A stretch of DNA of 38,382 bases from a virus: positions 1 to 38,382 of IMG/VR virus record IMGVR_UViG_3300044733_003732. The stretch is one strand, 5' to 3'. A program made the position numbers and the translations under genes. This document shows positions 9,945 through 38,382 of the stretch, piece after piece. How positions within the stretch are numbered: position 1 is the stretch's first letter; each line of letters begins with the position of its first letter. The notes beneath the pieces were generated by a model, which ran no database searches, was not told the DNA's origin, and was given only the letters and a program-made list of their open reading frames with translations.

Positions 9945-12900
9945 TTATGCCTGAGCTTCTGTCCAAGATAAACGGGCTGAAATATCTCCAGATGTTAATC
10001 CTAGGTTTGTTGCGACGATTGTTAAAATATCTGGACCATTTGGGAATCCTGGTGCTTTAAAGTTTCCATCACCAGAAAGAATTGATGTTCCAAGATCCTT
10101 AACCTTTGACAAATCAAATGTTGTAGCTGAGTAGTTTGTACCACCAGTACCGTCGGTGTAGAAAGCAAACGCCTGATCTCCACCTCTGATTGTTGTTATA
10201 GGGTTGGTTACAGTAGAACCTGTTCTACCAGTATTATCATGGTAGATAACCTGTGCTAGAGATCCACCAGGGATTCTAATAGTTTCCCAATCGCCTGGAA
10301 GGTTTACTCCAGTAGGGAAAGCTGATGGGTTATATATACCCTGAATCAAGAATGCTCCCTGAGCAAGAATACCAAGCGAACTTAGTGCTAGCTGCATAGT
10401 GTTAAGAGTTTCTCTCTTACCGTAATTTCTTCCAATTCCATTATCTGCTGAAGGAGCAATTCTGATTGAAAGAAGTGGTCTTGCAATTGCTGAAGAACCA
10501 AAGCTCTGTGAAGCGGATCCTTGAGGGGTAACAATACTTGTTGGAATTGTAGTTCCAAATGGTATCGTGTACTGAATTGTATTGCTTGTTACTGCGCTTA
10601 CTGTAAATGTTCCATTAAATGTTGAACTTTCTACAGCGCTTGAATTTGTTTGAGGCTGAGCAGTGTATCCATATACACCTGCAAGGATTACATCGAACTG
10701 GTTTGACGATGGCACTGCAGATATTGTTCTAATCCCGTTCAAGACACCAACTATTGCGGTAGTTTGAATCTGTCCATTTTGAAGGTTTCTAGAAAGAACT
10801 GAATTTGATATAGTTACGTTTTGGTCTTGAACAAAGTTGTGAGAACCCTGAGTTGTAACTCTTATTGTAGATGCAGAAGTTCTTACAATACTTGTTATTG
10901 ATGCTGAAGTATTTACGTCAGAAATTCTAATTGGATATCCAACCTGCAACTGGTGCGGTGCAGCAGTTGTTACTGTTGCAACACCTGATGTAGCAGACTT
11001 TGAAGCAATCTTTGCAATAACTTCACCAGAACCTGCAACGTTTACGAATCTCTGCATACCAGCGGTAAAGATAAAGTTCTTATCATCATCAAACTTACCG
11101 TCCATGATAACAGATGATCCCCAGTGGCTAATTACTGGAGCACAGGTATTTGTAATTGTTTGAACAGAAACTTGTGCAGTTCCAGTTCCATTTGTAATAG
11201 TATTATCTGGAAGATATGTTGCATTGCTAGAAGATCCTGATAGCTGAACTGCCTGACCCTGTAGATAAGAGGTCATTGGCTGTCTTCTGTTAATATTAAC
11301 AGGATATCCTTGTGCAATTGCATTATATTCTCTATTAGTAATTGTATAAGAACAAATTTCAAAATTGGTGTCGTCTTTTATAACCAAGAATCCTTGGTCT
11401 GGCCAGAATTTAACACTATCAACATACATAACAATCATTGTTGGGGATAATGGAGATCCAACAATTCCTGATGATCCCGCCTTTAGCTTTGTGCTAAAGA
11501 ATGGTGAGTTAATAGCTTCATATCTTGCTGGAAGGTTTCCAGAACGCATGTAAGCTTCTGTGTTTCTATTGTTGTTAGGCATCTTGTGGCAATAAACAAT
11601 ATTTCCTTCTGTGCCTCTAAATCCGAATCTAATAAATCCCGCACCATACCATGTGTAGTCAATGTAGGCCATCTGCATCAATGCTGGGTCCAATGTGTAT
11701 CCTGAAGGTCCCTTACCATCTAGCTTGTCTACGTTCCACTCGGTCTGAGGAACTCTAATTTCTTGAGTTATAACATAAGATGAGTTTGTTAGAGAATCTC
11801 CCTTATATGCAGGGCTAACCTTCATATTAGTGTCTGATGCAATTTCAATAACTGTGTAGTTTGCTCCCTTAATAACAATCTGGTCTCCGACCAGCAACTG
11901 CTTTCTGAATCTTGTATTTATACCAGTAATTGTGTTTGAAAACTTAGTTGCAGCAATTTTACCAAAAAGATCTTTCTTAGAGAATCTTCTAACCGCATAT
12001 AGGTATGTGCCATCGTATTCAAGGAAGAATCCGTTTTGGTCATTGTACATACCAGTTCTTGTTGCAGCACCTTCCCACTTGTAAACAGTAATTGTTACGT
12101 CAACTCCTCCTGGGAACTGATCAGTAGCAGTTAAATTTTGTGTAATAGGCATTATATATTGGAACTCATTTGTTCCTAAAACATTTGTAACCGTAAACTT
12201 GCCATTCCATGGGTTGTAAGTTCCTGCTGTTTGAACTCCGTCTACCTTAATTTTTGCTCCTGGTTGCATTCCGTGATCTTGAATTGTACGGACTGTTACA
12301 ACCTGATTTCCAATCAAAACTCCAGCTACAGATATCTGATCTACGTCAAACGTAGGGGTAAACTTTACACCAGTTGAGAACTGAATTGACTTTCCTGACT
12401 GATATCTAAAGTGACGACGTGTTTGACGAATAACTCTTACTCCACAGACATTGTCTGTTGTTGAAAGAATAACTCCTCCATCGTGTGGTCTGTGCTGAAC
12501 ATAACCATTTGGCTTTGCATAAAGTCCTACGCCATTTGTGACAATTGGGTTAGAAACCTGTGAATCCATTTTAAACTTCATTTGATTTGGACTTGAGACG
12601 TTAAATATTCTCCAAGATCCCTTGATTGAGCAATTTGCATTCTGGCTTCCGATTAGAATTGGTGTTCCTGGAAGAAGTCCATGAGCTGTGCTTGTTGTAA
12701 TTGTAATTGTAGATTGTGCTGCTCCGTCTGAGTTTGCAGACCATCCTTGAAGTCCGAGAGAATCGTTTCCGCCTGGAATGTGTGCGTTATCGAAGATTCC
12801 TCCACCAGTAACTGATGTAAGGCTTCCATCTGAAATTGATCCAGAAACAATTCCGCTTGCTAAATATGTAAATGTAAATCCGTCTGCGCTTACTGTTTCA

Positions 12901-13505
12901 ACTGGGAAAGTTCCTTCAGCTAAAGGATTTTTTGTATCTTGAAGTGAAACAACATCTCCTGCAACAAGTTCTGTTGCTGGGCTAGAAACAACTACAGTAA
13001 CTGTAGATCTTGGCGCTGCGCCATCGCCAGTTACGCTTACTACGTCAAATGAGTTTCCGCCTGTTGCTCTAGAAAAGAATGATGGGTAATTTGATGTTAA
13101 TACCAAGGCTTCCCACTTAGAGCTCTGAATACCATATTCAAAGTCTGTATCCATTAAAGATTGTGGTGGGGCGACTCTAAGTTTATTTACCGCATCCATA
13201 AGCGGCTCTGTAAATGTTACTGTTTCTGCTGGCTCGTCAACAATGATTGCAAGTTGATCGGTAGCAGCCATTGATGCACAGTTGTACTTAAGAGTAATAA
13301 TTGTCTTTGGCTCATAGCCAACTTCATTGTCTACTGAAAAAGATATTGCAGTTAAATTAGGATCGGAGAAGTTGTAGATGACCTTACCTTGTGTCGTATT
13401 TGTGATAAGCATCAATCGATCTTGTCTTACTATTCTTGGAATAATAATCTGATCTAATTCTGGCTTAAATACGTAGTATGCGTGTTCTATTTGTCTTCTT
13501 GACAT
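9945..13505 (-). CDS. Very large virion structural protein (1186 aa)
   Basis: 1186 aa, the largest gene in the window. Beta-rich with repeated strand-turn modules of the type S-x-x-x-x-T-V-x-T-x-x-x-H-x-L-x-x-G-x-x-I-x-I (for example STITITTSTAHGLLPGTPI near 270, GVATVTTAAPHQLQVGYPI near 870 and RVTTQGSHNFVQDQNVTI near 905). Such H-x-L/F-x-x-G-x-x-V modules are common in large virion proteins of uncultured and T4-like marine phages. No catalytic motif was seen. Likely a baseplate or fibre component. AGGAG precedes the start. Confidence 0.8.
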   Translation of the reverse strand: MSRRQIEHAYYVFKPELDQIIIPRIVRQDRLMLITNTTQGKVIYNFSDPNLTAISFSVDNEVGYEPKTIITLKYNCASMAATDQLAIIVDEPAETVTFTEPLMDAVNKLRVAPPQSLMDTDFEYGIQSSKWEALVLTSNYPSFFSRATGGNSFDVVSVTGDGAAPRSTVTVVVSSPATELVAGDVVSLQDTKNPLAEGTFPVETVSADGFTFTYLASGIVSGSISDGSLTSVTGGGIFDNAHIPGGNDSLGLQGWSANSDGAAQSTITITTSTAHGLLPGTPILIGSQNANCSIKGSWRIFNVSSPNQMKFKMDSQVSNPIVTNGVGLYAKPNGYVQHRPHDGGVILSTTDNVCGVRVIRQTRRHFRYQSGKSIQFSTGVKFTPTFDVDQISVAGVLIGNQVVTVRTIQDHGMQPGAKIKVDGVQTAGTYNPWNGKFTVTNVLGTNEFQYIMPITQNLTATDQFPGGVDVTITVYKWEGAATRTGMYNDQNGFFLEYDGTYLYAVRRFSKKDLFGKIAATKFSNTITGINTRFRKQLLVGDQIVIKGANYTVIEIASDTNMKVSPAYKGDSLTNSSYVITQEIRVPQTEWNVDKLDGKGPSGYTLDPALMQMAYIDYTWYGAGFIRFGFRGTEGNIVYCHKMPNNNRNTEAYMRSGNLPARYEAINSPFFSTKLKAGSSGIVGSPLSPTMIVMYVDSVKFWPDQGFLVIKDDTNFEICSYTITNREYNAIAQGYPVNINRRQPMTSYLQGQAVQLSGSSSNATYLPDNTITNGTGTAQVSVQTITNTCAPVISHWGSSVIMDGKFDDDKNFIFTAGMQRFVNVAGSGEVIAKIASKSATSGVATVTTAAPHQLQVGYPIRISDVNTSASITSIVRTSASTIRVTTQGSHNFVQDQNVTISNSVLSRNLQNGQIQTTAIVGVLNGIRTISAVPSSNQFDVILAGVYGYTAQPQTNSSAVESSTFNGTFTVSAVTSNTIQYTIPFGTTIPTSIVTPQGSASQSFGSSAIARPLLSIRIAPSADNGIGRNYGKRETLNTMQLALSSLGILAQGAFLIQGIYNPSAFPTGVNLPGDWETIRIPGGSLAQVIYHDNTGRTGSTVTNPITTIRGGDQAFAFYTDGTGGTNYSATTFDLSKVKDLGTSILSGDGNFKAPGFPNGPDILTIVATNLGLTSGDISARLSWTEAQA

Positions 13506-24891: not shown

Positions 24892-24920
24892 ATTATATAC
24901 CGTTTAGGCAGAAATGTCTA
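24892..24920 (-). promoter_or_regulatory. Promoter for holin-like gene and tail module
   Basis: Minus-strand TAGACA (24915-24920), 17-bp spacer, TATAAT (24892-24897). The -35 overlaps the final codons of the ribonucleotide reductase gene. The predicted start at about 24885 precedes two stem-loops and a strong ribosome-binding site. It is the best minus-strand promoter seen ahead of the tail genes. Confidence 0.7.
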
Positions 24921-26838
24921 CAAGCTCGCAATTACCGTCTGAACTGCAGGCAAGCGTAGCATTTGTAGAAGTTCCATCCTCTGTTTCATAAAAAGACAAA
25001 TCTTCCCAGCGAATTTCTTTTGGCATCTTTGCAACAAGTGCCTCGTAATCTTCTTTGCTAACTTCTTGGTATGGAGCCTGCTTGTATGAGTGGTCAGAAT
25101 GTGGCAGGAATGAAATTCCAGAGACTTCGTCAAAATGCTTATAGACCCATGCTCCAACTTCCATCCACTCATCTTCTTTTACAGAAACTGTAATAGATGG
25201 CTTATGCTCACACCATGCACGTTGATAAACTAACCAAATGTTTAGGTGTTCGATAGCTGTTAAATCATTTCTAACAATTGCACCTTCTGGTGCCTTTACT
25301 GGAAACGAAAATACGTAAGTCTCGTTTGGCTTCATTACGTCGTCTTCTACTGGAATTCCAACTTCTTTCAAAAATGTAGAAATAGGATCTCCCTTTGAAC
25401 CACGTACTGTACGAATGTAATATGGAGAATGCCATGCATGCATTCCTGAAGATACCCCGACCAATTGAGATACTGTTCCAGATGGCTTTACACAAGTAAT
25501 AGCGGCAGACTCAGGAATCCCAATTTTCCCAGCCTCATCTTTATTCTTTGCTCTTGCTGATTCTCTAAGAGTCATCAAGAATTCTTCTAGGGAAACCAAA
25601 TCTTCTTTGCCTGACATAAACTTATGTCCAAATTGTCCAGTTAAAGATACTCCTAGCAGACGCTCTTCTTCTGTGTTATCTTTCCAGATTTTACGTAGGT
25701 ACTTAAAGTCTGTAAGAGTAGACTGCCATGTTCCAAGGATTGTAGCTAATTGAACCTTACGTTCGATATCTTTCTTTGTATCATTTTCACGTAATACGAC
25801 TTCTGAAAGATTACAAAACTGGTAAGGACGTAGAATAATCTCTGAGCACGGGTTAGTTCCGTAGTGAATATCTGGATCTCTTCTTCCATACTTGGCTGCT
25901 TGGGCCTGAGCTGCGGCCACGTTGTATATACCTCGTTCTCCTGACTTTGAGTCATACAAAGATTTCCATTCTGCAATAAACTGCTCCATATCTGGCTTGC
26001 GTGAATACGCAACAGAATTATTTGATAATGCACGTTGTGTGTTATTCTCCCACCAATTACCAGACTTTGCTGCAGCCATTTCAATATCATTAATATTAGA
26101 AAGAGAAATCATTGCTGAGCGACGAACTCCTCCGACTACAACTACTTCGCCAATCTTGCACATAATGTCATGCGCTTCAATAGGCTTTAACTGGCGTCCT
26201 GCTGCTGACTTAAACTTTGCAATAGTAAAATCAAATAAATTAACTAATGGTTGTGGACCAGATGATCTGCCACCCATTGTTTTAAGTCTTGCGCCTGCGG
26301 GACGAACTTTAGATACATCAATTGCTGGAATTTGTCCAGACCAAAGCAATGCAAGTAGTTCACGGTATGACTTTGCCCAACCTTGCTTAGAATCTTCTAC
26401 AACTATTACTGTATCAGACTTTTCAAATGATTCTGGCACTGCGGGAAGTTTATTAACATACTTGTACTCAACAGAAAAGCCAACACCTGTGCCACACATA
26501 AGAATATACATTGTTTCATCAAATGATCTTGGATTGTCTACTGGTACAAATGAACAATTGTATCCTGCAACATTATCTCTGTCTAGGGCAGCACCTGCAG
26601 TCATTACGGATCTCATTGATGGCATTACATTTCTATTGAACACAGCAGACTTTAGTTCTTCAACTAGTTTTGATTCTGGCTCATATGAGTATTCTTTAAA
26701 AAGGTGATTCAGCATAAAATCAAAGTATCTATCTACTGTCTCTCCCCATGTCTCACGACGGTTATCCTCTGGAATCCATCGTGCATATCTAGATAAAGCA
26801 ATAAAGTTTTCGTATGGGTTTTCAATAGTTTTTGACAT
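24904..26838 (-). CDS. nrdJ: Class II (adenosylcobalamin-dependent) ribonucleotide reductase
   Basis: 644 aa. Reduces ribonucleotides to deoxyribonucleotides with vitamin B12 and no oxygen. Key residues are present: C95 (YNCSFVPVD) and C342 (FCNLSE), the redox pair; N329-P-C331-S-E333 with the radical cysteine and acid; and the C-terminal pair C631/C637 (ACSSDGNCEL). CGTGVGFS and KPSGTVSQLVGVSSG are also typical. Length and motif spacing fit the monomeric Lactobacillus leichmannii type (triphosphate reductase, RTPR), slightly shortened. It supplies dNTPs for phage DNA synthesis. AAAGGTG precedes the start at some distance. Confidence 0.95.
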   Translation of the reverse strand: MSKTIENPYENFIALSRYARWIPEDNRRETWGETVDRYFDFMLNHLFKEYSYEPESKLVEELKSAVFNRNVMPSMRSVMTAGAALDRDNVAGYNCSFVPVDNPRSFDETMYILMCGTGVGFSVEYKYVNKLPAVPESFEKSDTVIVVEDSKQGWAKSYRELLALLWSGQIPAIDVSKVRPAGARLKTMGGRSSGPQPLVNLFDFTIAKFKSAAGRQLKPIEAHDIMCKIGEVVVVGGVRRSAMISLSNINDIEMAAAKSGNWWENNTQRALSNNSVAYSRKPDMEQFIAEWKSLYDSKSGERGIYNVAAAQAQAAKYGRRDPDIHYGTNPCSEIILRPYQFCNLSEVVLRENDTKKDIERKVQLATILGTWQSTLTDFKYLRKIWKDNTEEERLLGVSLTGQFGHKFMSGKEDLVSLEEFLMTLRESARAKNKDEAGKIGIPESAAITCVKPSGTVSQLVGVSSGMHAWHSPYYIRTVRGSKGDPISTFLKEVGIPVEDDVMKPNETYVFSFPVKAPEGAIVRNDLTAIEHLNIWLVYQRAWCEHKPSITVSVKEDEWMEVGAWVYKHFDEVSGISFLPHSDHSYKQAPYQEVSKEDYEALVAKMPKEIRWEDLSFYETEDGTSTNATLACSSDGNCELVDISA

Positions 26839-29400: not shown

Positions 29401-29472
29401 TATCCCTAGAGAGATTCGAACTCCCGACACACAGGGTAGAAACCTGTTGCTCTTCCGCTGAGCTATAGAGAT
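29401..29472 (-). tRNA. tRNA-Arg (anticodon UCU)
   Basis: Cloverleaf by hand: acceptor ATCTCTA with TAGGGAT, U8-A9, D-stem GCTC/GAGC, anticodon stem ACAGG/CCTGT with loop TTTCTAC (anticodon TCT), T-arm GGGAG-TTCGAAT-CTCTC, discriminator A. CCA is not encoded. Reads AGA/AGG, codons common in this A/T-rich genome. Confidence 0.92.
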
Positions 29473-29473
29473 A

Positions 29474-29547
29474 TGGAGCGAGTGACCAGAATCGAACTGG
29501 CACTATCTGCTTGGAAGGCAGAGACACTACCATTATGTAACACTCGC
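29474..29547 (-). tRNA. tRNA-Gly (anticodon UCC), CCA encoded
   Basis: Acceptor GCGAGTG/CACTCGC, anticodon stem TCTGC/GCAGA with loop CTTCCAA (anticodon TCC), T-arm GCCAG-TTCGATT-CTGGT, discriminator T and encoded CCA at 29474-29476. Reads GGA/GGG. Confidence 0.92.
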
Positions 29548-29551
29548 ATCG

Positions 29552-29624
29552 CTGGACCACCTGGACTCGAACCAGGGACCTAGAAGTTAACAGCTTCCCG
29601 CTCTGCCAACTGAGCTATGGTCCA
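29552..29624 (-). tRNA. tRNA-Asn (anticodon GUU)
   Basis: Acceptor TGGACCA/TGGTCCA, D-stem GCTC/GAGC, anticodon stem GGAAG/CTTCT with loop CTGTTAA (anticodon GTT), T-arm CCTGG-TTCGAGT-CCAGG, discriminator G as usual for Asn. CCA not encoded. First of the three in the direction of transcription. Confidence 0.92.
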
Positions 29625-33080: not shown

Positions 33081-33192
33081 CATTTCATATTTCACAAAAT
33101 GTTAATATATTTTTATCATGTATGATCACGAATAAATAAATGTCCGTTTTGTCTATTTAGTGCGCCCATAGGCTACTAACTTTGAGCGTGAG

Positions 33193-33208
33193 TGTGATGC
33201 TAATCACA
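33193..33208. promoter_or_regulatory. CRP/GlxR-like palindrome 1
   Basis: TGTGATGCTAATCACA, a full TGTGA-N6-TCACA match. Centre lies about 62.5 bp before the -10-like TAGAGT at 33263 of the promoter ahead of the 68-aa gene. Confidence 0.7.
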
Positions 33209-33245
33209 AAAATAGTTTGAGAATACTTGCCAGTAACCCCCCTTT

Positions 33246-33274
33246 TTGTCAGTCCCCCCTGCTAGAGTTATACT
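33246..33274 (+). promoter_or_regulatory. Repeated early-type promoter, copy 1
   Basis: TTGTCAG at 33246-33252, N10, then TAGAGT, or TTGTCA with 17-bp spacer to TATACT (33269-33274). The inner part (CCCCCCTGCTA) is shared with copy 9. Ambiguous as to which -10 is used. Confidence 0.65.
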
Positions 33275-33283
33275 ATAAAGAAA

Positions 33284-33302
33284 ATCAAGAAAGGTTCTTG
33301 AT
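33284..33302 (+). other. Leader hairpin ahead of the 68-aa gene
   Basis: Perfect 8-bp inverted repeat ATCAAGAA-AGG-TTCTTGAT in the 5' untranslated region, just before the ribosome-binding site (AAAGGA). Its loop contains a second AGG. Possibly translational control. Confidence 0.55.
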
Positions 33303-33319
33303 AAAGAAAGGAAAACAAA

Positions 33320-33526
33320 ATGTTTTCACTAAGTTATAAAGTCCAATACTCGGACACCGAGTTTTCTACTTGCTTAGGTGTTCTAATGAATACCGAACAA
33401 GATGCTAATGAGTATCTTGACCTACTAGCCCTAAGAGGCACTATCTTAGAAACTAATCTAAGAGAGTTAGAAAATTACAAGCCTAGCACTCGCAAGGTTT
33501 ATGCTACTACTAGAAGTTGGGAGTAA
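33320..33526 (+). CDS. Small protein (68 aa)
   Basis: 68 aa. Starts FSLSYKVQYSDTEF and ends RKVYATTRSWE, one cysteine. AAAGGA precedes the start. The layout strand-helix-strand is a small mixed fold; I do not recognise it. Followed after four bases by a 34-aa frame. Confidence 0.7.
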   Translation: MFSLSYKVQYSDTEFSTCLGVLMNTEQDANEYLDLLALRGTILETNLRELENYKPSTRKVYATTRSWE

Positions 33527-33530
33527 TCTA

Positions 33531-33635
33531 ATGAACGATTATCTTGATTATATGGACGAAATCTACGAGGAACTCGTAGAGGAGTTCGGACACGAAATCG
33601 AGTCCGTGTGTGACCATAATCACACTAACGCCTAA
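33531..33635 (+). CDS. Tiny acidic protein (34 aa)
   Basis: 34 aa, very acidic (YMDEIYEELVEEFGHEIES), ending CDHNHTNA with possible metal ligands. The end of the frame contains CRP-like palindrome 2, so the coding and regulatory sequences overlap there. Probably co-transcribed with the 68-aa gene. Confidence 0.5.
   Translation: MNDYLDYMDEIYEELVEEFGHEIESVCDHNHTNA
33609..33624. promoter_or_regulatory. CRP/GlxR-like palindrome 2
   Basis: TGTGACCATAATCACA, full TGTGA-N6-TCACA match, inside the end of the 34-aa frame; centre about 53.5 bp before the -10 of promoter copy 2. Confidence 0.65.
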
Positions 33636-33652
33636 CGGCGTGTCGCTATACA

Positions 33653-33675
33653 ATGTCGGCGCTATGCGCTACAAT
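33653..33675 (+). promoter_or_regulatory. Repeated early-type promoter, copy 2
   Basis: ATGTCGG (33653-33659), N10, TACAAT (33670-33675), with the extended CGC before the -10. Leader ends AACGAAAGAAG ahead of ATG 33711. Confidence 0.65.
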
Positions 33676-33710
33676 TCCTACTATAACTACTAACGAAAGA
33701 AGAACAGATA

Positions 33711-33863
33711 ATGACTATCACTTATACACTATGGCAAGGCTCTCAACTATTAGCCGTAAATCAAAAGGCTAACAAGCCCGAAGAAATCTTAGCCGTAATA
33801 AAAGAATTAGAAAAACTAGGTAAGGGTTTCACTTACAACATTAGAGAAGTAGAGGTAAAGTAA
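33711..33863 (+). CDS. Small protein (50 aa)
   Basis: 50 aa with a strand-helix-strand layout (ITYTLWQG, PEEILAVIKELEKLG, FTYNIREVEV). Its stop overlaps the next ATG as TAATG. First of five overlapping genes controlled by promoter copy 2. Confidence 0.65.
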   Translation: MTITYTLWQGSQLLAVNQKANKPEEILAVIKELEKLGKGFTYNIREVEVK

Positions 33864-34027
33864 TGATGACTAAATGGGATACTATTCAGGCAGATGTAGC
33901 AGACGCTTATGTCTATCTAGAAGAAGAAGAAGCCTATAACAAGGCACTAGCAGAGGGCTTAGATTTGCGCCTTAGCGAATACGAAGAAGAAGAAATGTCC
34001 GCACTAACATTAGATTGGGATAACTAA
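33863..34027 (+). CDS. Small acidic protein (54 aa)
   Basis: 54 aa (or 53 from the second ATG at 33866), highly acidic with two runs of four glutamates, helical. Coupled to the previous gene by TAATG. Such acidic small proteins in phage early regions often act as inhibitors that mimic DNA, but nothing here proves it. Confidence 0.6.
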   Translation: MMTKWDTIQADVADAYVYLEEEEAYNKALAEGLDLRLSEYEEEEMSALTLDWDN

Positions 34028-34029
34028 TA

Positions 34030-34185
34030 ATGACTATAAACGGATTTGAGTTATACATAACTAGCGACTACGGATTAGAGTTTGATAGTTTCTTAGGGGC
34101 TATCTACTTACCTTGGCACACTATCCTAATTACTACCGCCCTACTAATCGCCTATAAGATTTACAAGAGAAAGAAGAATAAGTAA
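34030..34185 (+). CDS. Small membrane protein (51 aa)
   Basis: 51 aa. One membrane helix at about residues 23-45 (GAIYLPWHTILITTALLIAY) and a basic tail KIYKRKKNK that should stay in the cytoplasm. Its stop overlaps the next ATG as TAATG. Confidence 0.6.
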   Translation: MTINGFELYITSDYGLEFDSFLGAIYLPWHTILITTALLIAYKIYKRKKNK

Positions 34186-34298
34186 TGACTACTAATCGCT
34201 TACTAACTACCGCCGTCCAATTACTACTAGCGGGCGTAACTATCCCGCTACTAATCGCAGTAATCAAAGACATAAAAAATGGGGGACTAAATGAGTAA
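34185..34298 (+). CDS. Small membrane protein (37 aa)
   Basis: 37 aa with one hydrophobic helix (LLTTAVQLLLAGVTIPLLIA) and a basic end. Coupled by overlap at both ends. Together with the 51-aa protein it suggests a membrane-associated takeover function, but no family is recognised. Confidence 0.55.
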   Translation: MTTNRLLTTAVQLLLAGVTIPLLIAVIKDIKNGGLNE

Positions 34299-34488
34299 AT
34301 CACAATTAGAAAAAGATTTAGAAATCAAAGAAAGTTTTATAGATTTACTAAATGACATTTATCCAACTGTAAAAATTGGTTACTCAACTTTTACACCCGC
34401 CGAAATCTTAGAGTGTTGCGATCCCGTTGCGTTTGCGATTGGTTTAGTAGAACACGAAGATTATTTAGCGGAATTAGAAAATGAATAA
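34291..34488 (+). CDS. Small acidic protein (65 aa)
   Basis: 65 aa, acidic. FTPAEILECCDPVAFAIGLVE in the middle with adjacent cysteines C42-C43. Last of the five-gene group; its start overlaps the previous stop by eight bases. Conserved-looking small phage protein of unknown role. Confidence 0.65.
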   Translation: MSKSQLEKDLEIKESFIDLLNDIYPTVKIGYSTFTPAEILECCDPVAFAIGLVEHEDYLAELENE

Positions 34489-34526
34489 ATAAATAACGGC
34501 GTGTCGGCTTGACAAAATCAAGCTGG

Positions 34527-34561
34527 CCCGCAACTACTGCGGAGTCGGGCGTGTCGTTACG
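34527..34561 (+). repeat. Dispersed stem-loop repeat, copy A
   Basis: 35 bp beginning CCCGCA-ACTAC-TGCGG, followed by AGTCGGGCGTGTCGTTACG. Identical to the copy at 35984-36017 except for the loop (ACTAC against GAGC). Confidence 0.8.
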
Positions 34562-34626
34562 ACATTGTTATAAAAATCCCTGAATTCTACGGCGTGTCGA
34601 TTTGACAGACAAATCGGACATTTTGA

Positions 34627-34642
34627 TGTGATTAGTATCACA
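34627..34642. promoter_or_regulatory. CRP/GlxR-like palindrome 3
   Basis: TGTGATTAGTATCACA, full consensus; centre 72.5 bp before the -10 of promoter copy 3. Confidence 0.75.
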
Positions 34643-34689
34643 CGGCTTGAGCGTCTCACTATTTGGATTTACTGGCTAGTAATGTGAAA

Positions 34690-34712
34690 ATGTCAGTGGG
34701 TTCGTGTATAAT
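34690..34712 (+). promoter_or_regulatory. Repeated early-type promoter, copy 3
   Basis: ATGTCAG (34690-34696), N10, TATAAT (34707-34712). Leader carries AACGAAAGAAGG before ATG 34748. Confidence 0.75.
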
Positions 34713-34747
34713 TCCATACATAACAACAAACGAAAGAAGGTCTGCCA

Positions 34748-34954
34748 ATGGCTACCAAACTATACACAATCGAAAGCCTACTTGTAGGGAAAAACTATCG
34801 CTCACGCAATCGCCACTTTTCTGGCGAAATTGTATCTGCCGAACACCGCCCAGAAATTTGGTATGGTGAAAAAACTGAAGCGTATCTAATCGAAATAAAT
34901 GCGGGCGGTCTGCGAAATAAATTCGCAACAATCGCAGTAAAGGTTGGTGAATAA
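34748..34954 (+). CDS. Small protein (68 aa)
   Basis: 68 aa, basic, mixed beta. ESLLVGKNYRSRNRHFSGEI and AYLIEINAGG suggest a small SH3-like or barrel fold, though this is a guess. First gene after promoter copy 3. Confidence 0.65.
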   Translation: MATKLYTIESLLVGKNYRSRNRHFSGEIVSAEHRPEIWYGEKTEAYLIEINAGGLRNKFATIAVKVGE

Positions 34955-34956
34955 TA

Positions 34957-35082
34957 ATGGGATACATCGAAATTTTCCGAATGGACAACGAGGGTGCTGG
35001 CTGGGTAGATTTATCCGAAGCAACACCCGATGAATTATTCAACATCGAATTAGGATTATTAGAGGAAGGTGCGTTCGAATGA
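34957..35082 (+). CDS. Small acidic protein (41 aa)
   Basis: 41 aa: GYIEIFRMDNEGAGWVDL, SEATPDELFNIELGLLEEG. Two bases after the preceding stop, and overlapping the next start by four bases (ATGA). Typical tight early operon. Confidence 0.6.
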   Translation: MGYIEIFRMDNEGAGWVDLSEATPDELFNIELGLLEEGAFE

Positions 35083-35204
35083 ACTTAGACGAATTCAAAC
35101 AACACGTTATCGCACAACGTGAGGCAAGCAAGGCGCAAGCCTTGTCAGTGCTATCTGCTACAATTACAAAATCAACAAACGAAAGGGAAAACCTAAATGG
35201 GTAG
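35079..35204 (+). CDS. Small protein (41 aa) whose 3' half contains promoter copy 7
   Basis: 41 codons from ATG 35079 to TAG 35204. Its last 20 codons run through the TGTCAG/-10 elements and the AACGAAAGGG leader of the next gene, coding TKSTNERENLNG. Either the frame is translated and the promoter is internal, or the frame is fortuitous in its later part. Confidence 0.5.
   Translation: MNLDEFKQHVIAQREASKAQALSVLSATITKSTNERENLNG
35142..35164 (+). promoter_or_regulatory. Repeated early-type promoter, copy 7 (inside a frame)
   Basis: TTGTCAG (35142-35148), N10 ending in TGC, TACAAT (35159-35164); leader AACGAAAGGG before ATG 35197. No CRP-like palindrome upstream. Confidence 0.65.
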
Positions 35205-35343
35205 AATGAAAGAATTATACACTCAGATTTTAGAGTGTGATACCTGCTACGGAAATGGCTGGCTATACTACGGAGATGAAAATAATTATGATGTAGAGGC
35301 TTGCCAATGTAATCCGCTCAGTTTTTTTCAGGAGAATAAATAA
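35197..35343 (+). CDS. Small zinc-finger-like protein (48 aa)
   Basis: 48 aa. ILECDTCYGNGWLYY (C14, C17) and EACQCNP (C36, C38) form a C-x2-C-x-G-x-G...C-x-C arrangement like half of a DnaJ zinc domain. Overlaps the previous frame by eight bases and abuts the next ATG. Confidence 0.65.
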   Translation: MGRMKELYTQILECDTCYGNGWLYYGDENNYDVEACQCNPLSFFQENK

Positions 35344-35469
35344 ATGAAAATTGCTGAAATGTGGATTTGCGATAATTGCGATACTCTCGCTATTGTGTCG
35401 GTGGCAACTGATACAATAGTAATAACACAATGTAAATGTATAACTAACGAAAGGGAAACTAATGTATAA
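35344..35469 (+). CDS. Small zinc-binding-like protein (41 aa) containing promoter copy 8
   Basis: 41 aa with C9-D-N-C12 and C30-K-C32 (WICDNCDTL; QCKCITNERE). The frame passes through a TGTCGG-N10-TACAAT element and the AACGAAAGGG leader of the next gene, ending TNERETNV. Coding continues eight bases into the next gene. Confidence 0.55.
   Translation: MKIAEMWICDNCDTLAIVSVATDTIVITQCKCITNERETNV
35396..35417 (+). promoter_or_regulatory. Repeated early-type promoter, copy 8 (inside a frame)
   Basis: TGTCGG (35396-35401), N10, TACAAT (35412-35417); leader AACGAAAGGG before ATG 35462. Weakest copy, since the base before TGTCGG is G and the extended -10 is CTGA. Confidence 0.5.
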
Positions 35470-35665
35470 ACTAACTTGCGCCTATGATAGCAACGCCCCC
35501 CACTGGTCTGCCGAATACGAAAATGAATTTGGTGCGTGGGAAAACTTTTTCCGTTTTACCGATTGGGGTTCTGCTAATGAATACTCAACTGTAAATTTAT
35601 TTACACCAACTGGCAAATGCTATACAAAACTATTTTATCGCACAGGAGAGGTCGTAGTAAAATGA
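35462..35665 (+). CDS. Small protein (67 aa)
   Basis: 67 aa, Trp/Phe/Tyr-rich (FGAWENFFRFTDWGSANEYS), beta layout, two cysteines. Probably a small globular protein; family not recognised. Its stop overlaps the next ATG (ATGA). Confidence 0.65.
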   Translation: MYKLTCAYDSNAPHWSAEYENEFGAWENFFRFTDWGSANEYSTVNLFTPTGKCYTKLFYRTGEVVVK

Positions 35666-35853
35666 TGACTAGAAAAGACTACATAGCAACCGCAGAAATT
35701 CTAAAGTATGCTAGCAACAAAACTCACCCTGCTGTATTTTCTAAAATTGTAAATGATTTCGCTGAAATGTTTGCGAAAGATAATGAGCGATTTGATGTAA
35801 AACGATTTCACGAAGCGAGTGGGTATAATGTTCCTAACTTCTCTTCAAGATAA
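35662..35853 (+). CDS. Small conserved phage protein (63 aa)
   Basis: 63 aa from ATG 35662; the longer frame from 35617 would overlap the previous gene. MMTRKDYIATAEILKYASN, then VNDFAEMFAKDNERFDVKRF and HEASGY match a small helical protein often seen in actinobacteriophage early regions. Function unknown. Confidence 0.7.
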   Translation: MMTRKDYIATAEILKYASNKTHPAVFSKIVNDFAEMFAKDNERFDVKRFHEASGYNVPNFSSR

Positions 35854-35959
35854 AGTAAAACGCATTCAGGAATTGCGTCGCAGTAATGCGGCGCAACCTG
35901 TTCGCAATAAAAAAAAATACACACGCAAAATAAAACATAAAAATAAATTCGATCAATAA
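35828..35959 (+). CDS. Tiny basic protein (43 aa)
   Basis: 43 aa, highly basic (KKKYTRKIKHKNKFDQ), overlapping the previous gene by 26 bases in another frame. Possibly nucleic-acid binding. Chance frame not excluded. Confidence 0.5.
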   Translation: MFLTSLQDKVKRIQELRRSNAAQPVRNKKKYTRKIKHKNKFDQ

Positions 35960-35983
35960 TTAATTAGAACAGGTGTTCGAAAG

Positions 35984-36017
35984 CCCGCAGAGCTGCGGAG
36001 TCGGGCGTGTCGTTACG
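35984..36017 (+). repeat. Dispersed stem-loop repeat, copy B
   Basis: 34 bp: CCCGCA-GAGC-TGCGG, then AGTCGGGCGTGTCGTTACG, matching copy A at 34527-34561 apart from the loop. Sits in the gap before palindrome 4. A partial third relative (CCCGCAATACTACGGG) is at 36972-36987. Confidence 0.8.
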
Positions 36018-36019
36018 TT

Positions 36020-36035
36020 TGTGATCAAAATCACC
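36020..36035. promoter_or_regulatory. CRP/GlxR-like palindrome 4
   Basis: TGTGATCAAAATCACC, one mismatch to TGTGA-N6-TCACA; centre 51.5 bp before the -10 of promoter copy 4. Confidence 0.65.
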
Positions 36036-36061
36036 CTGGATTTGCGAGCATGTTGTAGAAA

Positions 36062-36084
36062 ATGTCAGTCCGTTCTGTTATACT
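36062..36084 (+). promoter_or_regulatory. Repeated early-type promoter, copy 4
   Basis: ATGTCAG (36062-36068), N10 ending in TGT, TATACT (36079-36084). Leader AACGAAAGG before ATG 36113. Confidence 0.75.
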
Positions 36085-36112
36085 TGCCACTTAACCAACG
36101 AAAGGCCAACTA

Positions 36113-36832
36113 ATGAAATTGAAACGCTCTAATGATAGAAAGGTGGCTAACCTTGTCACAAAAAATGGAAAGCAAGCCGCAATTGCGAACACGTTCGGTC
36201 TCCCTGCAGGAAAAGATTATTCATGCCCTGGTGCCACTAGTATTTGTGAGAGTGTTTGCTACGCAGGAAAACTTGAAAAACTCTTCAAGGGAGTAAAAAC
36301 TAATCTGCTACACAATTGGGAATTGCTACGCAATGCCGATATGGAAACAATGTATCAATTGCTAAATGAAATGATTATTGATTTCAAGGCTGATTGTGTA
36401 AAGAAAGACGCTCCTATGCTATTCCGTATCCACTGGGACGGAGATTTCTTCAATGATTTCTATACTTATGCCTGGAAGAATGTAATCAATGAGCACACCG
36501 ATGTTCAATTCTGGGTTTACACACGTGTAAAGTCTGCAGCGCTTATTCTAAAGGATGTATCTAATTTATCTCTTTACTATTCTACCGACGATGAGAATAA
36601 AGAAATCGGCCACGAACTAAAAGTAAATGAGGGAATTCGCCTTGCATATTTAGGGAAGACATTCGCCGTCACCGAAAGCACAATGAAAGAATTGACGGGC
36701 AAGCCTGGTGCTAAGTGCCCTGAAAATATGAAATCAATTCCACTAATTAGCAATGCAGGTTCTGCGTGTGTATCGTGTGGGTTATGTGTTTATGGTAAAG
36801 CAGATATTAGATTTAGCGCAACTAAAAAATAA
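36113..36832 (+). CDS. GP88-like phage protein
   Basis: 239 aa, the largest gene of the right arm. DYSCPGATSICESVCYAGK (C38, C45, C49), FRIHWDGDFFNDFYTYAWK (a R-I-H-x-x-G-D-F motif), FWVYTRVKSA, and a C-terminal cysteine group (KCPEN, ACVSCGLC). These features fit the phage GP88 (gene product 88) family known from mycobacteriophages. The family has no proven function; the conserved cysteines suggest a metal or Fe-S cluster. Driven by promoter copy 4. Confidence 0.8.
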   Translation: MKLKRSNDRKVANLVTKNGKQAAIANTFGLPAGKDYSCPGATSICESVCYAGKLEKLFKGVKTNLLHNWELLRNADMETMYQLLNEMIIDFKADCVKKDAPMLFRIHWDGDFFNDFYTYAWKNVINEHTDVQFWVYTRVKSAALILKDVSNLSLYYSTDDENKEIGHELKVNEGIRLAYLGKTFAVTESTMKELTGKPGAKCPENMKSIPLISNAGSACVSCGLCVYGKADIRFSATKK

Positions 36833-36844
36833 GGAGAAATAAAA

Positions 36845-36967
36845 ATGGCGGAGCTTAATTATTTTAATGCATTAATAAATTCTGTTGTTGGTGATCAAGA
36901 TCAGAAAAAAGCTGCTAAAGAGTACTTAGCAGAAATAGATCCCGACATATGGGGCCAGGAGGAATAA
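36845..36967 (+). CDS. Small acidic protein (40 aa)
   Basis: 40 aa with AAGGAG before the ATG: AELNYFNALINSVVGDQDQ, AAKEYLAEIDPDIW. Helical; second gene of the GP88-like unit. Family unknown. Confidence 0.6.
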   Translation: MAELNYFNALINSVVGDQDQKKAAKEYLAEIDPDIWGQEE

Positions 36968-36988
36968 AAGGCCCGCAATACTACGGGG

Positions 36989-37018
36989 TTATCCACAGGT
37001 TTACGGGAGTTATCCACA
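36989..37018 (+). promoter_or_regulatory. Two perfect DnaA boxes in direct repeat
   Basis: TTATCCACA at 36989-36997 and again at 37010-37018, starts 21 bp apart (about two helical turns), both on the plus strand. They lie between a stem-loop (CCCG...CGGG) and palindrome 5 in a 159-bp intergenic gap. Could be part of a replication origin or a DnaA-controlled promoter region. Confidence 0.7.
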
Positions 37019-37031
37019 AACCCTGGAAATT

Positions 37032-37047
37032 TGTGAGATTTATCACA
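37032..37047. promoter_or_regulatory. CRP/GlxR-like palindrome 5
   Basis: TGTGAGATTTATCACA, full TGTGA-N6-TCACA match; centre 52.5 bp before the -10 of promoter copy 5. Confidence 0.7.
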
Positions 37048-37074
37048 AGGCTTATGCGGGGAATAGATTAGGTA

Positions 37075-37097
37075 ATGTCAGTGGGGTATGCTAAAAT
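37075..37097 (+). promoter_or_regulatory. Repeated early-type promoter, copy 5
   Basis: ATGTCAG (37075-37081), N10 ending in TGC, TAAAAT (37092-37097). Leader AACGAAAGG before ATG 37127. Confidence 0.75.
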
Positions 37098-37126
37098 ACT
37101 CTTATTCCAACAACGAAAGGTAACAA

Positions 37127-37351
37127 ATGTCTAATCTAATCAAAGTTCCACACACAATAACTTTCGAGGCTATCATTAACCTTGATACTATCCCTGCAAA
37201 CTTATTGCCACGCTTAATTGCTCTTGATGAAAAAACAATGACAGAGATGTGCAAGGAAGCAACGCTACACGCCCTTGCTCAATCTAATGTATTAAAAACT
37301 GCTAATGAGTTTAACACTTGGGCTGAAATGACTATCAAGGAAGGTAACTAA
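37127..37351 (+). CDS. Small helical protein (74 aa)
   Basis: 74 aa: strand HTITFEAIINLD followed by helices (LLPRLIALDEKTMTEMCKEA and LHALAQSNVLKTANEF). No known motif. Two bases before the next ATG, so the two genes form an operon behind promoter copy 5. Confidence 0.7.
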   Translation: MSNLIKVPHTITFEAIINLDTIPANLLPRLIALDEKTMTEMCKEATLHALAQSNVLKTANEFNTWAEMTIKEGN

Positions 37352-37353
37352 CA

Positions 37354-37623
37354 ATGGGAAGCATAACTGCACTAGGTATTCAGGATAGCGTGTTAGATTT
37401 AGAAACACAATTAGCCTATCACTTACAGGGTAATCATTACCCACCCGTTCCACTTTCTATGGTGCAACCTTGCATAGATGCTATTGACGCATACTATGAT
37501 GAGGATTTTGATCGACAGATAAAGATGCCTGAAGGCGTATCTTATAAAGGATTAGATACAGCACCTGCCTCCGCTATTATTGACCAACACCACTTAGGAT
37601 TTTGGCTACCTGAGTGTGACTAG
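37354..37623 (+). CDS. Small acidic protein (89 aa)
   Basis: 89 aa. QLAYHLQGNHYPPVPLSMVQ, CIDAIDAYYDEDFDRQI, and a C-terminal TAPASAIIDQHHLGFWL. Layout is that of a conserved small actinobacteriophage protein of unknown role. Its stop codon is inside CRP-like palindrome 6. Confidence 0.7.
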   Translation: MGSITALGIQDSVLDLETQLAYHLQGNHYPPVPLSMVQPCIDAIDAYYDEDFDRQIKMPEGVSYKGLDTAPASAIIDQHHLGFWLPECD

Positions 37624-37630
37624 TATCACA
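37615..37630. promoter_or_regulatory. CRP/GlxR-like palindrome 6
   Basis: TGTGACTAGTATCACA, full consensus, overlapping a stop codon; centre 52.5 bp before the -10 of promoter copy 6. Confidence 0.75.
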
Positions 37631-37636
37631 CGACAC

Positions 37637-37656
37637 TCCCCCTAGAAATGGGGGGA
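37637..37656 (+). other. C/G stem-loop before promoter copy 6
   Basis: TCCCCC-TAGAAAT-GGGGGGA, a six- to seven-pair stem ending two bases before the ATGTCGG element. No T-run; it may end upstream transcripts weakly or act at DNA level. Confidence 0.5.
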
Positions 37657-37657
37657 A

Positions 37658-37680
37658 ATGTCGGTGGTATCCGCTATAAT
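37658..37680 (+). promoter_or_regulatory. Repeated early-type promoter, copy 6
   Basis: ATGTCGG (37658-37664), N10 ending in CGC, TATAAT (37675-37680). Leader AACGAAAGG before ATG 37710. Confidence 0.75.
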
Positions 37681-37709
37681 ACTACTACCAACCAAACGAA
37701 AGGAAACAA

Positions 37710-37868
37710 ATGACAAACGCAACACTAGAAGTAGGTCAAACCTACACAACAACAACAAGCGGTATCACAGGAGTTATCAAAGCCGTTGATAACCACCCTA
37801 GCGGAGTAAATCGTATTCTGCTTGATGTAGAAGGCAAGGAACGCTGGACAAGCGCAACTGCTAACTAA
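37710..37868 (+). CDS. Small protein (52 aa)
   Basis: 52 aa, beta-rich (TLEVGQTYTTTTSGITGVIK, RILLDVEGKERW), with the look of a small SH3-like barrel. AAAGG before the start. Single gene behind promoter copy 6. Not recognised. Confidence 0.6.
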   Translation: MTNATLEVGQTYTTTTSGITGVIKAVDNHPSGVNRILLDVEGKERWTSATAN

Positions 37869-37932
37869 ATAAGCATAACGAAACAGGGACAGTTTAGAGA
37901 GTGTTCTAGTCCAATGTCGTAAGTAAGAACTC

Positions 37933-37948
37933 TCCACCTTCGGGTGGA
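37933..37948 (+). other. UUCG stem-loop before promoter copy 9
   Basis: TCCACC-TTCG-GGTGGA, a six-pair stem with the very stable UUCG loop, ending just before ATGTCAG. Equivalent in position to the stem-loop before copy 6. Upstream (37893-37934) a longer imperfect pairing GAGAGT...ACTCTC is also seen. Confidence 0.6.
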
Positions 37949-37949
37949 A

Positions 37950-37972
37950 ATGTCAGACCCCCCTGCTATACT
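37950..37972 (+). promoter_or_regulatory. Repeated early-type promoter, copy 9
   Basis: ATGTCAG (37950-37956), N10 (ACCCCCCTGC), TATACT (37967-37972). Leader AACGAAAGG before ATG 38001. No TGTGA palindrome upstream. Confidence 0.75.
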
Positions 37973-38000
37973 AATCAACCAACCAACGAAAGGAAATACA

Positions 38001-38382
38001 ATGAGCAGACAAATCACAGTAAAGGTAGCAACAAGCAAAGTAATCAAGGCACTAGAGGCTCGTCTAGCAACGCTAGAAAATGATTACAACACACAGACAG
38101 CAAAGGAAGCAAAGTTCGGCAAAGCGCAAGAAGCGTGGCGCAAGGAAATTGCTAAGTGGGCTATTGCCAACTTCTCAAAGGCTGAGAACCTTCGCACAAA
38201 CTATCGTCAATGGAACAACACTCTCAATGTTGATTTTGACATCATCACAAAGGAAGGCAACTTCCCTGCTGAACCTGAAAAGGACTTTGAGGTTATCCAT
38301 CAGCACCAGTATCGTGAGATGAAAGAGGACATCACAAATGCCCTAACAATTCTCAAGATGACAGATGAGGAAACAGTAAATG
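38001..38382 (+). CDS. Partial helical protein at the right edge (at least 127 aa)
   Basis: Open frame from ATG 38001 running off the window. Starts SRQITVKVATSKVIKALEAR, then a charged helical segment (ATLENDYNTQTAKEAKFGKA) and a mixed region (NVDFDIITKEGNFPAEPEKD). Lys/Glu/Ala-rich, probably coiled coil in its first half. Family not recognised; many actinobacteriophages have an early protein of this style. Confidence 0.75.
   Translation, partial: MSRQITVKVATSKVIKALEARLATLENDYNTQTAKEAKFGKAQEAWRKEIAKWAIANFSKAENLRTNYRQWNNTLNVDFDIITKEGNFPAEPEKDFEVIHQHQYREMKEDITNALTILKMTDEETVN

Follow-up and report, generated by a model that had tools for sequence, protein, structure and literature searches.

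PafBC-dependent promoters, RecA-NDp promoters and recA P1 are names of one class of actinobacterial promoter. The PafBC motif is given as TGTCGG-10xN-TA-3xN-T, with TGTCAG and TGTCAC as variants, and its orientation matters (PMC8151990). PafBC sits between the DNA and domain 4 of sigma-A, PafB engages the −26 motif and single-stranded DNA (ssDNA) activates the factor (PMC11804915). The recA P1 promoter of M. smegmatis depends on PafBC, an activator independent of LexA and RecA (PMC5656591), and RecA-NDp promoters are present in Streptomyces (PMC5087735). A second element, the corynebacterial GlxR consensus, reads 5′-TGTGA-N6-TCACA-3′ (PMC7999487). We describe here a 38,382-base stretch of viral DNA (IMG/VR record IMGVR_UViG_3300044733_003732, positions 1 to 38,382; hereafter the window) in which nine copies of TGTC(A/G)G (TGTCRG), ten bases and a TA-N3-T box lie ahead of open reading frames (ORFs), most of them preceded by a CRP/GlxR-type palindrome.

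Judged by their letters, both elements have exact published readers in actinobacteria; the window motif is letter for letter the published mycobacterial PafBC motif and is not in itself new. We put at about 0.7 the probability that the promoters of the array serve host PafBC and that many of them have class-I CRP-like sites. In the titles and abstract openings of the literature searched, a scope from which subscription papers mostly fell out, we found no PafBC-type promoters in phages and no mention of such a promoter paired with a phased CRP-type palindrome.

Nine copies of the motif in the window

A scan of both strands of the whole window found TGTCRG-N10-TA-N3-T nine times, all on the + strand within 33247–37972, and no further copy on either strand; the pattern read backwards gave 0 matches. 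These are the nine sites proposed by an earlier reading made from the letters alone (the sequence-only reading), with TGTC starts from 33247 to 37951 and a spacer of exactly ten bases in each. In first-order Markov simulations the region 33100–38382 averaged 0.09 copies and never had more than 2 (2,000 runs), while the whole window averaged 0.64 and never had more than 5 (300 runs). With one mismatch allowed there were 21 matches vs 17.9 expected, which is chance level, so only the strict form of the motif stands out. GC content is low (0.387); a freshwater habitat would be a guess from this value and carries no weight in what follows. The copies are as follows.

33247..33268, + strand, promoter 1, TGTCAG-N10-TAGAGT; alternative reading TTGTCA-17-TATACT
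33654..33675, + strand, promoter 2, TGTCGG-N10-TACAAT
34691..34712, + strand, promoter 3, TGTCAG-N10-TATAAT
35143..35164, + strand, promoter 4, TGTCAG-N10-TACAAT; palindrome not found
35396..35417, + strand, promoter 5, TGTCGG-N10-TACAAT; palindrome not found
36063..36084, + strand, promoter 6, TGTCAG-N10-TATACT; precedes gp88
37076..37097, + strand, promoter 7, TGTCAG-N10-TAAAAT
37659..37680, + strand, promoter 8, TGTCGG-N10-TATAAT
37951..37972, + strand, promoter 9, TGTCAG-N10-TATACT; palindrome not found

An ORF lies downstream of every one of the nine sites, with 28–51 nucleotides between the −10 box and the ATG, and the proposal of a promoter family is upheld. TGC or CGC directly precedes the −10 in six copies. 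GAA or GAAA before ATGTC, which had been assigned to copies 3, 4, 6 and 9, is present in 3, 6 and 9 and also in copy 8; copy 4 reads CCTTGTC.

It had also been claimed that the position 17 bp from the −10 holds no consensus. This was put too strongly. At spacers of 15–19 the nine promoters agree with TTGACA in 1–4 of 6 bases at best, and a sigma-70 scan gives copies 2, 3, 6 and 9 a 4-of-6 upstream hexamer (TATACA, GTGAAA, TAGAAA and TGGAAA) and reads copy 1 as TTGTCA-17-TATACT (10 of 12), with a −10 further downstream. The region as a whole yields 22 such sites vs 14.2 (standard deviation 3.4) in shuffles. A weak −35 may thus be present at copies 1, 2, 3, 6 and 9.

A palindrome upstream of the promoters

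A second promoter part had been overlooked in the sequence-only reading. The window contains six TGTGA-N6-TCAC(A/C) palindromes, all of them 27–48 bp ahead of a TGTC site (promoters 1, 2, 3, 6, 7 and 8), and none elsewhere. Five of the nine promoters have the strict form and six have it with one mismatch allowed; for the five strict palindromes the simulated whole-window mean is 0.05. The gaps of 38, 29, 48, 27, 28 and 28 bp follow steps of about ten bases. The palindromes, all of the CRP/GlxR type and with no strand assigned, are as follows.

33193..33208, upstream of promoter 1, gap 38 bp
33609..33624, upstream of promoter 2, gap 29 bp
34627..34642, upstream of promoter 3, gap 48 bp
36020..36035, upstream of promoter 6, gap 27 bp, one mismatch (TCACC)
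37032..37047, upstream of promoter 7, gap 28 bp
37615..37630, upstream of promoter 8, gap 28 bp

Conservation in related viral loci

Two sets of IMG/VR loci were compared with the window. The motif-selected set came from a scan for the palindrome plus the site at a gap of 25–55 bp (80 loci among at least 120 stretches, with up to seven matches in one stretch). The gp88 set was selected without the motif and comprises loci encoding a relative of the protein behind promoter 6 (the best 80 of 594); removal of 23 upstream regions with identical DNA left 57 distinct ones.

The sequence-only reading had named, as evidence that would count against it, absence of the block in close relatives with the same genes. 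For gp88 this is not what was found: a site lies within 160 bp upstream in 47 of the 57 distinct regions, and most of the ten regions lacking one look, by eye, like the end of a preceding ORF running into gp88. In 28 of the 57 there are exactly 7 nucleotides between the −10 and the ATG, which suggests leaderless starts with the ATG at the putative +1. In that case TGTCRG would lie at about −29 to −24, and its placement away from −35 in the sequence-only reading stands.

The spacer is specific. The motif-selected loci hold 815 sites at N10, 10 at N9, 6 at N11 and 8 matches to the reversed pattern; higher counts at N8 (27), N12 (69), N13 (21) and N15 (92) probably reflect an additional TA-N3-T close by. 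When the site was combined with the AACGAAAGG leader described below, at least 120 viral stretches were found at spacer 10 and 0 in the spacer-11 control. Two other spacer-11 patterns, which likewise served as wrong-spacing controls only, gave three bacterial genome stretches and five viral stretches. The one-base control TGACRG returned 20 viral stretches, of which 9 form a single unrelated family whose loci hold no sites, 3 fall in array loci (L137, L141 and L151) carrying 8–10 sites, and 8 are others.

The palindrome recurs with the sites in both sets. With at most one mismatch it was found within 124 bp upstream of 259 of 399 sites in the gp88 set (counted after removal of those at least 85% alike) vs 0 in the downstream control, whose search space is smaller (98 bp); in the motif-selected set it accompanies 360 of 599 sites, with 3 in the control. 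Conversely, most distinct strict palindromes lie 15–62 bp ahead of a site: 267 of 288 in the gp88 set and 304 of 388 in the motif-selected set. TGTGA-N6-TCACA occurs 422 times in the gp88 set (copies unmerged) vs 0–1 times each with N4, N5, N7 or N8, and five altered palindromes occur 0–1 times.

Most gaps are phased to the helix. In the motif-selected loci and the window they peak at 27–29 (96 cases), 33–34 (33), 37–41 (101) and 47–50 bp (71), with small peaks beyond the searched range of 25–55 at 18 (7) and 59–60 bp (7); in the gp88 set the main gaps are near 18, 28, 38, 48 and 59 bp. In the gp88 set phase coherence is strongest for a period of 10.5 bp (Rayleigh z 111, n = 274), and in the motif-selected set z reaches 160 at 10.5–10.75 bp; since the sites are related by descent, z is a description and not a probability.

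Among 25 large contigs of 72–116 kb (14 from the gp88 set and 11 from the motif-selected set), each carries 9–24 sites, mostly on one strand, vs 0–4 for the reversed control. The 1186-amino-acid virion protein of the window is encoded in 5 of 45 array-bearing records (3 at full length, 52–74% identical); many of these records are short, and several above 95 kb also lack it. The array thus seems not to be tied to a single virion type.

Predicted regulators and rival explanations

The sequence-only reading had suggested recognition by a phage-encoded factor or a repressor. A phage-encoded factor is not supported. The motif is the signature of host PafBC, and in the 25 large contigs, which may be incomplete (the window itself is a fragment), no WYL, HTH_Crp_2 or Sigma70_r2 domain was found (0/25 for each), WYL and HTH_Crp_2 being present in the actinobacterial control C. 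glutamicum; the phage WhiB protein is not set aside by this result. The upstream palindrome mostly stays on a single helix face, as is usual for activator sites, and this makes a repressor less likely. Host PafBC together with host CRP is the simplest reading, in which two stress regulators of the host would drive a gene module of the virus.

In this mechanism the host WYL-domain activator PafBC would recognise TGTCRG as a '−26 element' and, when bound to ssDNA, would let the housekeeping RNA polymerase initiate at promoters that lack a −35, a mode named 'sigma adaptation'. The ssDNA could come from phage DNA as it enters or replicates, or from broken host DNA, and promoter activity would rise with it. 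A CRP dimer centred near −65, −75 or −85, mainly on one helix face, would aid RNA polymerase as class-I cyclic AMP (cAMP)-CRP does; cAMP would raise activity, and the genes so driven would be early. Copies without a palindrome (three of the nine in the window) would be PafBC-only promoters. A broader proposal, to which we give somewhat less than even odds, is that a widespread group of environmental actinophages has an architecture of its own, in which a cAMP-CRP class-I site on one helix face and a PafBC −26 element let an entire early module be switched on by ssDNA or damage combined with the carbon (cAMP) state. Two-input viral use of sigma adaptation of this sort is not described for bacterial promoters in the portions of the literature covered by our search.

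If environmental actinophages do run entire gene modules from promoters of the PafBC type, the host damage response, in which PafBC has been studied as a mycobacterial activator of DNA repair, would be an entry point for viruses as well. It would explain how a phage with no detected sigma factor has a promoter class of its own, and the helix-phased CRP-type sites offer hundreds of natural spacing variants bearing on cooperation between an upstream activator and PafBC.

Several observations weigh against host PafBC and CRP as the readers. The palindrome stands directly ahead of gp88 in only 6 of the 57 distinct regions, and no palindrome accompanies 140 of the 399 gp88-set sites or 239 of the 599 motif-selected ones. 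Gaps of 33–34 bp fall out of phase by half a helical turn, and the centres near −65, −75 and −85 are about 3–4 bp off the class-I positions of E. coli. Further conserved blocks (GCGTGTCG, AATGTCCG and TTGAGCGTC) are not accounted for by the promoter model. The sigma-70 scan recovers five of the nine window promoters, four of them through the 4-of-6 hexamer. WhiB places the host no more closely than among the actinobacteria, and the phage WhiB, the one phage regulator still a candidate, could be the real partner of sigma-A. Finally, the array was found in environmental contigs only and is absent from the 17 public actinophage records examined. Eleven of these (ten named phages and the metagenomic ctEqG8, including large Streptomyces phages reached through reductase DNA, Gp88 or a relative's WhiB) have 0–3 sites each, ten being at or below the reversed control and Paradiddles above it (3 vs 1); six more, from other hosts, have 0–1 sites, and two of them exceed a control of 0.

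The best surviving rival keeps the PafBC-type promoters and has TGTGA-N6-TCACA bound by a dimeric factor other than CRP. It could draw on the conserved blocks that flank the palindrome, such as TTGAGCGTC, which follows it by exactly 4 bp in 32 cases; we nevertheless consider it unlikely, the palindrome being the exact GlxR consensus. HTH_Crp_2, absent from all 25 phage contigs yet present in C. glutamicum, speaks against it too.

More doubtful still is a phage-encoded regulator, most likely WhiB with sigma-A region 4, that reads TGTCRG in place of PafBC and defines a phage-specific regulon. WhiB-family proteins bind sigma-A, and a WhiB gene is present in 18 of the 25 large contigs, but the other seven array-bearing contigs (72–98 kb, possibly incomplete) have none, and the motif coincides exactly with the host PafBC one. 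In seven public phages reached by their WhiB match (L242–L248) there are 0–3 sites, which means that having a phage WhiB need not go with having the array. WhiB has been described as an actinophage marker (PMC10202952, PMC6802176).

We also think it improbable that these are constitutive extended −10 promoters, some with a weak −35, at which a phage repressor has TGTCRG as its operator and another repressor occupies the palindromes: phage operator arrays of such a kind exist, the extended −10 positions of the compound sites are G in 84% and T in 67%, and five window promoters are recovered by the sigma-70 scan, but TGTCRG is fixed at N10 (815 sites vs 10 at N9 and 6 at N11), a constancy that a repressor would not need, the palindromes mostly stay on the same helix face across gaps of 18–59 bp, as is typical of an activator, and a Pfam scan of 20 window proteins found no repressor or integrase.

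Leaders and genes of the module

The leader block that the sequence-only reading had noted in eight of nine copies was confirmed: AACGAAAG is present in copies 2–9, and the leader of copy 1 is AAGAAAGG. The block had been called longer than ribosome binding needs; against the 16S end, AACGAAAGG reads as an ordinary Shine-Dalgarno sequence (GAAAGG). AACGAAAGG as part of the recognition unit was considered and rejected because leaderless copies keep the promoter without it. The leaders and ORFs of the array are as follows.

33320..33526, + strand, ORF behind promoter 1, 68 amino acids, no Pfam family
33692..33699, + strand, AACGAAAG leader of promoter 2, putative Shine-Dalgarno sequence
34729, 35178, 35446, 36097, 37112, 37695 and 37985, starts of the further AACGAAAG leaders
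33711..33863, + strand, ORF behind promoter 2, 50 amino acids
34748..34954, + strand, ORF behind promoter 3, 68 amino acids, no Pfam family
35197..35343, + strand, ORF behind promoter 4, 48 amino acids
35462..35665, + strand, ORF behind promoter 5, 67 amino acids, no Pfam family
36113..36832, + strand, gp88 (PF17338) behind promoter 6, 239 amino acids
37127..37351, + strand, ORF behind promoter 7, 74 amino acids, no Pfam family
37710..37868, + strand, ORF behind promoter 8, 52 amino acids
38001..38382, + strand, ORF behind promoter 9, continues past the window end

One of the eight array ORFs scanned has a Pfam family, Gp88 (PF17338); of the ORFs listed, the scan covered those behind promoters 1, 3, 5, 6 and 7. 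In a relative (G012), 11 distinct module proteins were scanned and yielded a DUF932 protein, a protein with a DUF1281_C (Api92-like) domain, Gp88 and one member of an unnamed PHROG; the others had no family, one sub-threshold prefoldin match being disregarded. The orientation of the window module is opposite to that of the structural genes, which would fit an early region, and the array probably drives a module of small, early genes.

Other features

Several repeats lie near the promoters. GCGTGTCG-type repeats occur in the window at 33636, 34497, 34548, 34590 and 36004, and also in related loci. In the relatives GCGTGTCG starts 16–17 bp before TGTCRG at 50 of 600 sites, its reverse complement peaking at 26, and it is possibly a third protein site of these promoters. 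AATGTCCG peaks 34 and 25 bp before TGTCRG in related loci, and the window copy of TTGAGCGTC is at 34647. A longer repeat, GTCGGGCGTGTCGTTA, lies in GC-rich intergenic DNA at 34544 and 36000 and is also found upstream of gp88 in relatives.

Two perfect DnaA boxes, TTATCCACA, are at 36989 and 37010, immediately upstream of the promoter 7 palindrome. Related loci hold 539 copies in 1.94 Mb (overlapping loci unmerged) vs 6 of the reversed form, and 77 of 600 upstream regions have one vs 22 expected. DnaA control or an origin is possible at these boxes.

Elsewhere in the window, three consecutive tRNA genes lie on the − strand at 29401–29624, and an Rfam scan of the window found these three tRNAs only. 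A luciferase-like monooxygenase (PF00296; 30248–31087, − strand) and a protein partly matching B12-dependent ribonucleotide reductase (24904–26838, − strand) are also encoded. The best named relatives of a virion structural protein (9945–13505, − strand) are cyanophage proteins at about 38–39% identity, while Gp88 and the reductase DNA point to Streptomyces and Mycobacterium phages; the genome would therefore be a mosaic.

Comparison with known systems

The sequence-only reading had likened the array, in concept only, to the start-associated sequences (SAS) of cluster K mycobacteriophages, and the likeness indeed goes no further. Like SAS and extended start-associated sequences (ESAS), the array has many copies ahead of non-structural genes, and an inverted repeat lies upstream of about half of the cluster K copies; SAS, however, is a repeat of 13 bp that has been considered as a possible player in the initiation of translation (PMC3203893), and its sequence is unrelated. 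The window has no copy of the 13-bp GGGATAGGAGCCC within two mismatches, and three at three mismatches vs 4.1 expected; on this absence, membership in the SAS family was rejected.

SOS (LexA)-controlled phage genes are likewise tied to the DNA-damage state of the host. They differ in that PafBC is an activator independent of LexA and RecA (PMC5656591), and here it is a promoter array that would be used. With class-I CRP/GlxR sites the array shares TGTGA-N6-TCACA and a position upstream of the promoter that is phased to the helix face, but here the palindrome is paired with a PafBC-type promoter and a half-turn class exists. The closest likeness is to the PafBC-dependent promoters of actinobacteria, which have the same TGTC(A/G)G, N10 and TA-N3-T, and whose element near −26 would in the phage array, too, take the place of a −35; the phage array differs from them in its 9–24 copies per large contig, many of which carry a phased CRP-type palindrome.

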